The translations under genes were made by a program, and so were the position numbers. Shown here piece by piece: positions 3,149 to 5,908 of a stretch of DNA of 5,908 nucleotides. The notes under the pieces are model-generated. The model did not search any database. It saw nothing but the letters and a program-made list of their open reading frames with translations, and was not told the origin of the DNA. This stretch comes from an uncultured Lachnospiraceae bacterium (GTDB taxonomy: Bacteria; Bacillota_A; Clostridia; Lachnospirales; Lachnospiraceae), in assembly GCA_902795715.1 (NCBI GenBank), contig CADBME010000083.1, positions 1-5,908 of the forward strand. Direction: 5' to 3'. Numbering within the stretch: position 1 is the stretch's first letter; each line of letters starts with the position of its first letter.

Positions 3149-4699
3149 CTATGCCCCTCCGATAATCAACTTGACCAGACCCCGGTCTTCGATCATAGTA
3201 ACATCCCCTCTAAATGGTTTGCACAAAGACCCCAGCTTACTCTTTTCCTTCCTCGAAAGAAGCCTGCCGGGATATTGGCAGAATAAGACCATTTCCTGCC
3301 TGACCATACCACCCTGGATGATAAGATCCATACAATCGTCCGCCTGATCCTTTTCCTTTTTCAATCCAAGTCCCTGACCCCCTTCTTTATCCCAGTCAGA
3401 TTCCCGTTCCTTTTCTTCTTTCAGCCCAGATTCATGACTCTCTTCCTTCTTCAGCCCGGATTCCTGATTTCCTTCCACCCTGGTCTGATCATAGTGCTTC
3501 AAAGCCATATCACACATGCACATCAGTACTTTTTCCAAATCATTTATCCTGATTCCGCAAGGAAGATCAAAATCATGGAAACGAATCTGATATGGGATTT
3601 TTTCCTGGAGGAATCTTTCCTCACAAGATACAAGAAGGTCATTGATTTCGACTACTTCACTGTATTTTCCCACAGAAAGCTCTCTATAATGATTTTCAAG
3701 AATAGCCAGATAGTCACCAGCCATATTTCTTAATCTTTCCTGCCGATCCCAATCTGCATATTTGATATGGGATTCCTTTTTTTCCCCATCCACTTTTTCA
3801 CCAAAAGCAAACTGATTCGTGCTCTCTAAACGATTTCCCTTTTGTCCGCTAAATTCCGTTTTTTCTAACAGACCGCGAATCGCCCTGTCGATCTCTCTGT
3901 TATAGCGGTTGATCCTTGCGCTTTGTATAAGAGCTTGCTGATAATGGCTCTTTAAAGCCGACTCTCTGCGAATCAATTCCTGCCTGATCCTTATCCCTTT
4001 CATCCTTTCACTATATAAAAAGGACACCCACAGATAGGAAAGTGAAATAATCAGACAGAATGCGACCAGATTAATCATACCATTCCCTTTGTTTAAGGCA
4101 AAGTGCATATTACTGGCAATGCCCATAATATAATAAGCCGTAAGGAACAAAACGAGAAAAAAGGGATATCTGGGATTCCAGGCCATAAAACGCCGGATAA
4201 ATGGTATATTCTGTCTGACAAATATGACACAAAAAGCAAGACACCATAAGCCAAGCAGCAGATCTCTGGGATCCCAGCCCATACTCATTCCCACTTTATC
4301 CGGAGTTGTCCCCGGAAATAAAACCATAATCCCTACACTGTATATAGTAGATAACAGGGTTTCAAAAACCAACTCCACCATCAGTTTTTTCAGGAGATCC
4401 CCCTTAAATACACAGGCAAACATGACAATGCCAACCCAAATATTCAGGACGATCAGAAAAATGATCTTTCTCTCATACCAGTCCTGCCCGGCATACTTTC
4501 CCCCAAGAAATATAGATATATACAGGGTAATCCAAAAATATCTCCAGAACCACAAAAGCAACCAGACCAACAGGGAGCTCTTTTTCCCAAAGCGCAGCCC
4601 TACTGTTTTTTCAAACATATAAAATATGGTAAAAAAACCAAAGAATGAAGGAAAGAAGCTTTTCATATTATTCAGCAAAAAAAATAGAAGGGGCATCAT
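3149..4699 (-). CDS. Multi-spanning membrane protein with degenerate AgrC-like kinase half (pseudokinase sensor)
   Basis: Read from ATG at 4697-4699 (516 residues). The in-frame ATG at 4706-4708 gives 519 but leaves one base after AAAGGA (4710-4715), whereas 4699 gives 10. Hydrophobic segments near 14-30, 42-65, 78-97, 105-128, 145-163, 178-196 and 206-229 suggest a seven-span sensor like those of AgrC/ComD-type kinases. A charged helical stretch (230-280) follows, then a region aligning with the neighbouring kinase. Motifs are lost: the YRHD box reads YNRE (Arg268 for the phospho-histidine), the N-box reads LMCMCDMAL (Cys394 and Met398 for the two asparagines), and no glycine box remains. 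The C-terminal strands (PFRGDVTM near 495-502) still match the kinase's KYGGHLNI. Four 10-residue repeats fill a loop at 413-452. The gene starts within 17 bases of the kinase stop, so translational coupling is likely. I infer a catalytically dead sensor partner. A fast-diverging active kinase seems unlikely. Confidence 0.8.
   Translation of the reverse strand: MMPLLFFLLNNMKSFFPSFFGFFTIFYMFEKTVGLRFGKKSSLLVWLLLWFWRYFWITLYISIFLGGKYAGQDWYERKIIFLIVLNIWVGIVMFACVFKGDLLKKLMVELVFETLLSTIYSVGIMVLFPGTTPDKVGMSMGWDPRDLLLGLWCLAFCVIFVRQNIPFIRRFMAWNPRYPFFLVLFLTAYYIMGIASNMHFALNKGNGMINLVAFCLIISLSYLWVSFLYSERMKGIRIRQELIRRESALKSHYQQALIQSARINRYNREIDRAIRGLLEKTEFSGQKGNRLESTNQFAFGEKVDGEKKESHIKYADWDRQERLRNMAGDYLAILENHYRELSVGKYSEVVEINDLLVSCEERFLQEKIPYQIRFHDFDLPCGIRINDLEKVLMCMCDMALKHYDQTRVEGNQESGLKKEESHESGLKEEKERESDWDKEGGQGLGLKKEKDQADDCMDLIIQGGMVRQEMVLFCQYPGRLLSRKEKSKLGSLCKPFRGDVTMIEDRGLVKLIIGGA
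3344..3463 (-). repeat. Four tandem 30-bp repeats coding 10-residue units
   Basis: The encoded units are ESGLKKEESH, ESGLKEEKER, ESDWDKEGGQ and GLGLKKEKDQ. The first two agree at 20 of 30 bases by my count; the last two are more diverged. All are in frame within the pseudokinase. By alignment with the adjacent kinase they lie just after the N-box helix, in a loop that is only a few residues long there (around HDRPGK). They are strongly charged and probably disordered. Confidence 0.7.
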
Positions 4700-4716
4700 T
4701 AAGATCATTTCCTTTC

Positions 4717-5472
4717 TTACGATCTCACAAGTCTGCTACTAATAGTCAGATAAGAACTCTCTTCATCGAAGTCTATGTTTAAATGACCTCCATATTTACT
4801 ACAGTAATCTTTTGCGATAAGAAGACCCAGACCATGGTTTTTTGAATCTGATTTGCTGGTCTGAAAATTCATATCAAAAGATTTTGATACATCATTGCCC
4901 ACACATATATACAGACTCTCACCCTCATCATCTAAGATAAACAGGATACCCTTGCCAGGCCGGTCATGCAATCTCAGCTCTTCCTCCAGAGCATTATCAA
5001 GCAAATTCATCAGGATTCCCGTTATGTGAAAAGGATCCATCCTGCCAATACTATCTTCTTTTATATTTACCCGGGCTTCAAAAGGAATCTCTTTTTCCTT
5101 GCATTCCTCCGCCTTGATCTCACAGATTGCATTCAAAAGTTCATTCCGGCAATAAGGAAACTCTTTCATATGAGACATGTCATCCTGCATCTCCTGAAAA
5201 TACCCCTGCAAGGCCTGATATTCCTCAAAATCTTCCAGCTCCCTGCCTTCTCTCAGGAATTCTTCTACAATTCCCATATGTTTCTGCAAATCATGCCGGT
5301 ATTTACGAATTCCCTGGATTCTCTCCTGCATATCATCATAAAACTTTTGAATATAAGTGATGTTGGTCTCCAAAATCAGGTTTTCTTTCTCGGTTTTTTG
5401 CAGTTTTCGAATATAAATCATTAATCCGACCAGGATAAGAAACAAATGAATCAGGCTAAGATATTCGACCAT
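4717..5472 (-). CDS. GHKL-family sensor histidine kinase (AgrC-like), short, without sensor domain
   Basis: This 251-residue kinase should autophosphorylate on histidine with ATP and pass phosphate to a response regulator, usually LytTR-type in this family (family knowledge). The start at 5470-5472 follows GGGGAGG (5479-5485) with 6-nt spacing. Residues 4-21 form the only membrane segment, followed by a charged, probably coiled-coil stretch (22-56). YRHDLQKH at 58-65 carries the predicted phospho-acceptor His60. The N-box NLLDNALEE is at 156-164, with Asn156 and Asn160 for Mg-ATP. VGND is at 191-194, the glycine box HGLGL at 213-217, and KYGGHLNI at 226-233. It is shorter than usual AgrC-type kinases (about 400-450 residues), which carry five to seven N-terminal spans. 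Those spans sit instead on the product of the next gene, 8-17 bases downstream. No response regulator is adjacent on the upstream side within 436 bases. Function as histidine kinase is well supported; signal and partner are unknown. Confidence 0.92.
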   Translation of the reverse strand: MVEYLSLIHLFLILVGLMIYIRKLQKTEKENLILETNITYIQKFYDDMQERIQGIRKYRHDLQKHMGIVEEFLREGRELEDFEEYQALQGYFQEMQDDMSHMKEFPYCRNELLNAICEIKAEECKEKEIPFEARVNIKEDSIGRMDPFHITGILMNLLDNALEEELRLHDRPGKGILFILDDEGESLYICVGNDVSKSFDMNFQTSKSDSKNHGLGLLIAKDYCSKYGGHLNIDFDEESSYLTISSRLVRS

Positions 5473-5620: not shown

Positions 5621-5649
5621 ATTATAGGATATCACATTTGCAATAGCAA
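5621..5649 (-). promoter_or_regulatory. Sigma-A-type promoter for the kinase/pseudokinase operon
   Basis: On the minus strand a perfect TATAAT -10 (5621-5626) lies exactly 17 bases downstream of TTGCTA (5644-5649), which matches the TTGACA -35 at four of six positions. Transcription would begin near 5614, giving a leader of about 140 bases before ATG at 5472. The -35 lies inside the repeated AATAGCAAGGACAG element. Confidence 0.65.
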
Positions 5650-5669
5650 GGACAGGGAGAACAGGGGCT
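5642..5669. repeat. Direct repeat copy A (AATAGCAAGGACAG...GGGGCT)
   Basis: The first 14 bases, AATAGCAAGGACAG at 5642-5655, recur exactly at 5703-5716, and GGGGCT follows in both (5664-5669 and 5726-5731). This copy contains the -35 of the kinase promoter. The other copy has no -10 at the matching distance. Confidence 0.6.
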
Positions 5670-5677
5670 TCCCTGTT
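5660..5677. promoter_or_regulatory. Perfect 7-bp dyad upstream of the -35, operator candidate
   Basis: AACAGGG (5660-5666) and CCCTGTT (5671-5677) are exact inverted repeats around GCTT. The centre falls about 54 bases upstream of the predicted start, a usual activator position. There is no T-run after it on either strand, so a terminator role is unlikely. Confidence 0.35.
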
Positions 5678-5680
5678 GAT

Positions 5681-5700
5681 GGTCATGGCTGATCATGTCC
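5681..5700. promoter_or_regulatory. Imperfect palindrome GGTCATGGCTGATCATGTCC
   Basis: The arms GGnCATG and CATGnCC are separated by six bases. The centre is about 22 bases (two helical turns) beyond the centre of the AACAGGG/CCCTGTT dyad, so the two could be bound from the same face of the DNA. No known regulator site is recognised. Confidence 0.3.
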
Positions 5701-5702
5701 GT

Positions 5703-5731
5703 AATAGCAAGGACAGAGGCGATTAGGGGCT
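5703..5731. repeat. Direct repeat copy B (AATAGCAAGGACAG...GGGGCT)
   Basis: This is the second copy of the element, 61 bases to the right of copy A. The first 14 bases are identical, the middle is diverged, and GGGGCT is shared, with GGGGCTATT here adding another copy of the recurring GCTATT hexamer. Confidence 0.6.
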
Positions 5732-5807: not shown

Positions 5808-5838
5808 AGAGAATAAGCTATTGCGGCTGTGGGAGAAA
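5808..5838. repeat. Repeat copy C (TAAGCTATTGCGG...GTGG)
   Basis: TAAGCTATTGCGG at 5814-5826 recurs exactly at 5878-5890, with further matches on both sides (GAG before; GTGG and AGAAA after). The offset is 64 bases. The octamer GCTATTGC in it is the reverse complement of GCAATAGC at 5640-5647. Confidence 0.6.
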
Positions 5839-5860
5839 GCAGAAACGGAAGATCCATGTC

Positions 5861-5892
5861 GGCCGCATAGACGAGTATAAGCTATTGCGGCC
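5861..5892. other. Long inverted repeat near the right edge
   Basis: GGCCGCATAG (5861-5870) pairs with CTATTGCGGCC (5882-5892) with one bulged base, around an 11-base loop. The stem is strong and GC-rich. Neither strand shows a T-run after it, so I do not call a terminator. Its right arm is part of repeat copy D. Confidence 0.45.
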
Positions 5893-5902
5893 GTGGAAGA
5901 AA
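5872..5902. repeat. Repeat copy D (TAAGCTATTGCGG...GTGG), near the window edge
   Basis: This is the second copy of the 64-base-spaced element, ending six bases before the window edge. Further copies may follow outside the window, which would make this the start of a tandem array. Confidence 0.55.
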
Positions 5903-5908
5903 ACCGAG

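Follow-up and report, generated by a model that had tools for sequence, protein, structure and literature searches.

A candidate split sensor kinase family in Lachnospiraceae: a short histidine kinase and a membrane pseudokinase paralog

The window analyzed here is the whole of contig CADBME010000083.1 (5,908 bases) from an uncultured Lachnospiraceae bacterium (assembly GCA_902795715.1). It carries four minus-strand genes. Two of them, with open reading frames (ORFs) on the same strand 8 bases apart, are our subject: K, a short histidine kinase, and S, a multi-span membrane protein with a degenerate kinase half. The others encode a Wzy_C-type membrane protein and a partial protein at 1-843. 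Coordinates are collected in Table 1. A sensor kinase ordinarily forms a homodimer, each chain of which carries both the sensor and the catalytic part.

Table 1. Genes and features of the window (aa, amino acids). S residues are numbered from the ATG at 4708.
Feature	Position	Strand	Description	Basis
K	4717..5472	minus	short GHKL histidine kinase, 251 aa, one N-terminal membrane segment	ORF, Pfam, alignment
K residues 1-23	5404..5472	minus	sole membrane segment	hydropathy scan
K His60	5293..5295	minus	predicted phosphoacceptor (YRHDL)	alignment
K N-box, residues 156-160	4993..5007	minus	NLLDN (Asn156, Asn160)	alignment
K G2 box, residues 213-217	4822..4836	minus	HGLGL	alignment
S	3149..4708	minus	multi-span membrane pseudokinase, 519 aa (516 aa if the start is the ATG at 4699)	ORF, profiles
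S residues 1-225	4034..4708	minus	membrane (presumed sensor) half	hydropathy, membrane-only profile
S residues 226-519	3152..4033	minus	cytoplasmic half: degenerate DHp and ATPase module homologous to K	profiles
S Arg271	3896..3898	minus	column of K His60	alignment
S residues 397-401	3506..3520	minus	CMCDM, replacing N-box NLLDN	alignment
Short tandem repeat	3407..3476	minus	period 30, 2.3 copies	in an insertion of the former ATP-site region of S
Wzy_C-type membrane protein	821-2806	minus	661 aa	Pfam
Partial protein	1-843	minus	first 281 residues of a protein without a Pfam match	

Searched against Pfam, K matched HATPase_c_5 (E value of 3.7e-12; 46.5 bits against a cutoff of 22) and also HATPase_c, and no further domain lies ahead of the H-box beyond the single membrane segment. 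An earlier note, made from the sequence alone, had described K as a kinase with His60, Asn156, Asn160, and HGLGL, one membrane segment, and no sensor; Pfam, alignment, and hydropathy bear out each point. A protein search with K gave 55 matches, the window's own protein included, and 18 of the other 54 were aligned (27 to 61% identity); matches P0003 to P0056, among them the closest Ks (57 to 61%), come without genome context. A scan of genome contigs found 371 relatives of K, from which 80 loci were retained, and around the best of these a trio recurs: a LytTR-type regulator, a short K, and a multi-span protein of ~420 to 490 amino acids. Over all loci read, core K occurs in 26 assemblies, window included. 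Among the 26 K genes listed, the His and both N-box Asn residues are kept in all (the N-box of L007 reads NLFGNA) and HGxG in 25, the exception, L128, being shortened by a stop. Hydropathy finds the single membrane segment in 26/26, so that none of them has a polytopic sensor in the same chain. In the Protein Data Bank, the K profile matched the AgrC kinase module (6e52, E value of 1.5e-7; 4bxi, E value of 3.8e-4). Six distant relatives were matched on viral contigs.

For S, a Kyte-Doolittle scan gives seven membrane segments, the last near residue 214, in line with the "about seven" first reported. The protein matched no Pfam family, none of ten related proteins rose above cutoff, and a Protein Data Bank search with the S profile gave nothing meaningful. 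In the S column of K His60, Asn156, and Asn160 stand R271, C397, and M401, and the alignment contains no glycine box. The earlier note had named the same replacements (Arg, Cys, Met) and the lost glycine box; its numbers for the three residues (268, 394, and 398) are three too low when counted from the ATG at 4708 and agree with a start at the ATG at 4699. The latter, the fourth codon of S, is better spaced from an AAAGGA stretch, and P0001, a near-identical public protein and the sole match in the protein search, has 516 amino acids and begins there, so that this may be the true start. The same search made with an S alignment returned P0001 plus three proteins with HATPase domains.

The cytoplasmic halves of the two proteins are homologous. 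Profile-profile comparison of K with S gave a probability of 99.1% and an E value of 7e-19 over 226 columns, which rules out S as an unrelated membrane protein despite the absent Pfam match. The window's own pair would not have sufficed for this, since the best stretch of its S scored only 5.4 bits against the K profile; the S family as a whole does prove the relationship. The window S aligns with the neighbor of K in locus L001 over 513 residues (27% identity, 194 bits, the E value referring to a 30-sequence database) and less strongly with others, and the S profile matches S genes, Ks, and, end to end, some full-length kinases. Across 30 aligned S proteins, the His60 column contains no His (and in one protein a gap), and neither N-box column contains an Asn, the His column being hard to align in so diverged a family, and the HGxG box is missing as well. 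Two further S proteins also lack the catalytic residues as far as their sequences extend. Relatives of S with intact boxes were looked for; none occurs among the 30, and the intact unsplit kinases, which resemble S in layout and, in the case of L131, in the sensor domain too, fall outside the S group. The alignment of the two cytoplasmic halves quoted in the earlier note proved to be in the correct register, and its picture of diverged paralogs with complementary losses, catalysis in S and the sensor in K, is upheld by profile homology and by the residue columns.

S has nevertheless been maintained. Its ratio of nonsynonymous to synonymous substitution (dN/dS) in two pairs of relatives is 0.19 and 0.13; in the same pairs the dead ATPase part of S has 0.19 and 0.16 and K has 0.17 and 0.12, values that indicate purifying selection on S, including the part that lost catalysis. 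In K, the most conserved stretch is the first DHp helix with the His (mean BLOSUM score of 1.70); in S, it is the second DHp helix (mean of 1.44 over 20 columns). This comparison, which covers K and S and not ordinary kinases, hints that the dead kinase half of S may still have a structural role.

K and S occur together. S is present in 26/26 core-K assemblies and in 24 of them adjoins K or lies one gene away, the intervening gene being a regulator (L127, L128) or a broken S (G572). In the remaining two, G557 and G128, K sits where its contig ends, and a different contig carries S. In G128, S (L146 4086-6199) lies beside a regulator without K, and K (L126 4547-5323) is 300 bases from the end of its contig; both proteins group in the tree with those of L007 and L008. 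A LytTR-type regulator (RR) lies beside the K/S genes in 21/26 assemblies, three regulators being assigned by Pfam and the rest by a profile of twelve locus regulators that includes those three. Gene order varies (examples are K-S, RR-K-S, RR-S-K, S-K, S-K-RR, S-RR-K, S-K-S, S-S-S-K, and RR-K-S-S-S), and four-base stop/start overlaps occur in L005, L008, L015, and L019 as well as L125.

Two samples of genomes were searched for both genes. Of 299 Lachnospiraceae genomes, six carry short core K, and these six are also the ones with S (Fisher P value of 1e-12), core K being defined there as short frames of ≥136 bits, a threshold set after the scores had been seen; short kinases scoring 104 to 126 bits occur without an S match in at least eight other genomes. 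Of the six, G003 was found first through K, and G211 (L129) falls outside the starred 18-row K clade of the tree described below, its S joining the other S proteins at a support of 77. The only other genome of the 299 with an S-profile match at an E value of 1e-30, G215, carries an unsplit kinase. In 24 genomes of the nearest genus, 11 had K by threshold and all 11 had S, that of G563 being a 133-residue piece at a contig end (Fisher P value of 5e-6, computed before the following case was resolved). In G558, S is present and K is cut by the contig end, so that 12/24 genomes have both genes and 12/24 neither; four of the twelve (G001, G002, G551, and G572) were found first through K. Other S-profile matches opened in this sample were full-length kinases with intact boxes. 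The first look scored only part of the candidates in each genome, four or five in two of the searches, and some K or S genes may therefore have been missed. Elsewhere S is rare (1/391 genomes of the class and 1/246 of the class Coriobacteriia, in each case the genome on which the sample was centered). Long intact S frames occur in records labeled Bacillota and Actinomycetota, a placement that rests on the labels, because the Coriobacteriia records and many others are metagenome assemblies.

A tree built from 130 cytoplasmic domains and drawn with a midpoint root places 18 core Ks in one group (97*) and 22/23 S proteins in another (89), with 23/23 S on one side of a branch with a support of 77. 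The K clade and the S group branch alike, each containing (window, L001, L002), (L004, L018), (L019, Coriobacteriia), and (L127, L128). When 1,452 ORFs from the loci were searched with a profile built on the membrane half of S, the matches were S genes or pieces of them plus just two others, L131 (also L100 and L138; E value of 3e-20) and L147 (also L140; E value of 2.5e-12). The motifs of L131 (RLRHDM, N-box NLFINA with both Asn residues, and GQGIG) mark it as an unsplit relative in which an S-like sensor is joined to a kinase with its catalytic residues. L006, also intact, matches the S profile end to end at 105 bits; its membrane half alone did not pass. The full-length kinase L147 (254-1600, genome G033) keeps NIFDNA and HGLGL and has an H-box, RFRDEI, without the His, and on another contig of G033 a short kinase, L148 (3987-4754), keeps RFRHDL with degraded N and G boxes. 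The two, in a genome where K and S are present as well, are possibly complementary halves.

In 5/26 assemblies (G003, G552, G572, G006, and L015), the loci read hold more S than K genes. L015 has three S and two K genes, the second S copy of G572 is broken, and in G552 three S genes precede one K. The first two S proteins of G552 share 27.6% identity over the membrane half and 90.8% over the cytoplasmic half; the first of them and the S of G572 are 79.4% identical in the membrane half and 65.7% in the cytoplasmic half. In 25-codon windows (a last window of one codon was left out), the DNA identity of the two G552 genes jumps from 0.40-0.51 to 0.80-0.99 at the sensor boundary. The contrast between sensor and dead half, together with so sharp a breakpoint, is what one would expect if exchangeable sensors served a single kinase. 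Most simply, dead halves would have been copied over one another within the genome and kept alike by the common K while the sensors stayed distinct; alternatively, an S gene was recently duplicated and its sensor replaced by a swap. Either reading is compatible with a plug-and-sensor layout. When ten pairs of S from the same locus were compared, similarity in the ATPase part exceeded that in the membrane part in 10/10, and similarity in the DHp part did so in 9/10. We tentatively suggest, as a possibility rather than an expectation, that these are modular receptors in which one short kinase is shared by exchangeable pseudokinase receptors, the dead half being a matched plug, maintained partly by gene conversion, and the membrane half being swapped to alter the signal sensed.

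Judged by their sequences, K and S make up a real, rare, and conserved split sensor kinase family with predicted fully dead receptor subunits, probably a variant of the heteromeric sensor kinase. S would derive from a full-length AgrC-like sensor kinase, with the membrane sensor kept and the DHp-ATPase half dead but maintained, and K would be a paralog of S cut down to one membrane anchor and a working DHp-ATPase half. S would sense a signal in or outside the membrane and relay it to K via the paired cytoplasmic halves; K would autophosphorylate on His60 and then phosphorylate the LytTR-type regulator. In some genomes, several S proteins with different sensors would have one K in common. That K and S are two subunits of one receptor kinase, with S sensing and K phosphorylating, seems to us probable; physical contact between them, the direction of the signal, and phosphotransfer are inferred. 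If the two formed a 1:1 heterodimer, K phosphorylation would have to occur in cis, since S has neither the His nor a recognizable ATP site. The alternative would be a K2S2 assembly, which would be favored by trans action; AgrC-type kinases are held to autophosphorylate in trans.

Several observations weigh against the two-subunit reading or against parts of it. The window has no regulator, not even a hidden one, as the regulator profile gave no match over its six frames. Four further assemblies have none near the genes, and every one of them stops no more than ~1.2 kb from K or S. The S genes are strongly diverged (mean identity of 17.7% among 15 systems), and the within-locus similarity of dead halves has no uniform counterpart between species, the dead half falling below the sensor half in L005/L088, L001/L002, and L127/L128. 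A first Mantel test on 17 pairs, from which L088 was left out as a near-copy of L005, gave an r of 0.52 for K against whole S, 0.62 for its cytoplasmic half, and 0.34 for its membrane half. In 15 systems, distance correlations were 0.67 for K and S, 0.77 for K and the regulator, and 0.74 for the regulator and the cytoplasmic half of S, and the K/S partial correlation with the regulator held constant was 0.22. A K/S correlation no higher than that of K with the regulator speaks for co-inheritance as a unit and not for contact, and the regulator control thus rules out tree mirroring as proof of contact. Of the survey called for in the earlier note, then, co-occurrence holds, and S and K distances track each other no better than they track the regulator. 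Finally, the membrane segment that each of the 26 Ks retains would also suit a K homodimer with S as an accessory.

The latter idea, that K is a homodimer and S an accessory sensor touching K mainly via the membrane, its dead half serving only to dimerize S, has a precedent in RocA: this polytopic pseudokinase binds CsrS/CovS by its membrane part and homodimerizes by its cytoplasmic part (PMC6635533, PMC7028121). Within a 1:1 K:S pair, phosphorylation in trans would be impossible for want of the His and ATP-site motifs in S, which also suits this idea. However, K has no sensor of its own, unlike CovS, and the greater likeness of dead halves in the within-locus pairs and in G552 is the reverse of what purely membrane contact predicts, if only within loci and not uniformly between species; we regard this explanation as unlikely. 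More doubtful still is that the target of S is the regulator and not K, with S serving, for example, as a signal-gated phosphatase or sink that binds it. S-cytoplasmic distances do follow the regulator at least as closely as they follow K, the S/regulator partial correlation given K is 0.49, and the S of G128 lies beside a regulator with K on another contig. Yet neither of the two samples searched for both genes contains a genome with S and without K, the apparent exception being a K cut by a contig end, and S lacks the H-box, where the phosphatase activity of such kinases usually resides. That S is an ordinary decaying kinase gene, paired with K by accident, would account for its lost catalytic motifs, its insertions, and the broken copies in G572 and G003, but we rejected it on dN/dS, which in the two pairs compared stays low even in the dead ATPase part; the long intact frames under two phylum labels and the co-occurrence in both samples likewise leave it highly improbable.

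The earlier note had placed the pair under an AgrC/ComD theme. S has the layout of AgrC, a quorum-sensing GHKL kinase, namely a polytopic N-terminal half followed by a DHp-ATPase half, the K profile matches the AgrC module, and the LytTR-type regulator at 21/26 assemblies is a further likeness; in AgrC, however, sensor and active kinase form one chain, whereas S lacks the His, N-box, and G box and K lacks the polytopic sensor. FasBC proved the better comparison. Parts of the idea have precedents in FasBC, RocA/CovS, ChrS, DivL/CckA, and CheA3/CheA4, FasBC being the closest. FasB and FasC of Streptococcus pyogenes, which act with FasA, formed a heterodimer and no homodimer in two-hybrid tests; the FasB membrane part and the FasC ATPase part were dispensable, FasC was proposed to be a pseudokinase, and the model has FasB phosphorylating FasC on the required His246 (PMC12675982). 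Going by their descriptions, both systems join two kinase-like proteins to one regulator, ComE-like in FasBC and of the LytTR type at most K/S loci. FasB, however, is full length with six membrane segments, whereas K is short, and FasC keeps His246, which has no counterpart in any aligned S. The phosphate path would differ as well, because the kinase here is already short and S has lost the His too.

RocA resembles S in having six or seven spans and a dead kinase half and in regulating an active kinase that is a separate protein, but it is an orphan regulator and its partner CovS a complete sensor kinase, whereas K has no sensor and K and S are neighbors (PMC7028121, PMC6635533). CheA3/CheA4 of Rhodobacter sphaeroides also spread one kinase function over two proteins; in that system, phosphoacceptor and catalytic domain sit on separate proteins, whereas both are on K and only sensing has moved (PMC3591291). 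In Corynebacterium glutamicum, a ChrS with an inactive ATPase domain affects its active paralog HrrS, but this is a laboratory-evolved frameshift in a complete sensor kinase and no conserved gene pair, and heterodimers were seen for the native proteins, not for truncated ChrS (PMC9491836). DivL likewise is an inactive kinase homolog controlling an active kinase, CckA, which differs in having its own PAS sensor domains (PMC12189002). BceS, like K, leaves sensing to a membrane partner, but that partner is the ABC (ATP-binding cassette) transporter BceAB (PMC8534201), a solution resembling that of another short-kinase clade rather than K/S. In short listings of open-license papers, searched by title and the start of the abstract, no paper showing the K/S family was found.

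That other clade bears on the suggestion that short kinases might regularly be found without the partner. The 26 core-K assemblies hold no such case; more distant short kinases do lack S, in 28/28 of this clade. It comprises 29 rows (99*), 28 of them short GHKL kinases (e.g., at L016 7267-12465, L025, L029, L031, and L080). A regulator-profile match lies nearby in 26/28; two multi-span proteins of ~600 to 720 amino acids follow the kinase in 23/28, and one does in 4/28. At L016, the one locus tested, the pair are ABC transporters by Pfam. By analogy with BceAB and BceS, a transporter perhaps replaces the sensor in this clade.

Two further loci show other arrangements. L123 (G277:C1, 3136-5753, minus strand) has three adjacent genes, in which two six-span proteins of 293 to 294 amino acids flank a two-span protein of 278 amino acids. 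In the six-span proteins, the chain stops after a DHp helix that contains RHD or LHD, and an ATPase domain is lacking; the 278-residue protein, read by eye, has an N-box and HGLG and no H-box His. The sensor gene occurs in 1/299 family genomes, namely G277. L123 looks like a truly complementary split kinase, apparently closer to Fas or CheA3/CheA4 than K/S is. At L120 (3388-4670), a five-span protein of 191 amino acids without a Pfam match directly precedes a short kinase of 237 amino acids.

Elsewhere in the window, the Wzy_C-type protein, with ten predicted membrane segments, matched Wzy_C (O-antigen ligase) at 33.1 bits against a cutoff of 31.7; its gene lies 342 bases from S. Upstream of K, where no long gene was seen, are two imperfect direct repeat pairs, at 5631-5716 (25 nucleotides, 80%) and at 5809-5907 (35 nucleotides, 86%), the latter extending to the contig end. 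A sigma-70-like site lies upstream of K at 5649-5621 on the minus strand; such sites are no commoner than in shuffled sequence. Promoter and terminator counts for the window fell under the shuffle means, and a search of Rfam found nothing.

The K/S family would illustrate how signals can still travel through a dead kinase domain. Sensing and catalysis appear to have been parted long enough for the pair to turn up in records labeled Bacillota and Actinomycetota, while unsplit relatives survive and sensors join the dead half at a sharp recombination boundary. With one subunit lacking both the His and the ATP-site motifs, cis and trans autophosphorylation would be directly testable in this family, and the dead half of S suggests a ready-made plug for building receptors. 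In some gut bacteria, the split could let one kinase listen via exchangeable sensors; if the modular reading is true, a new input would be gained by adding an S gene, with no whole two-component system required.

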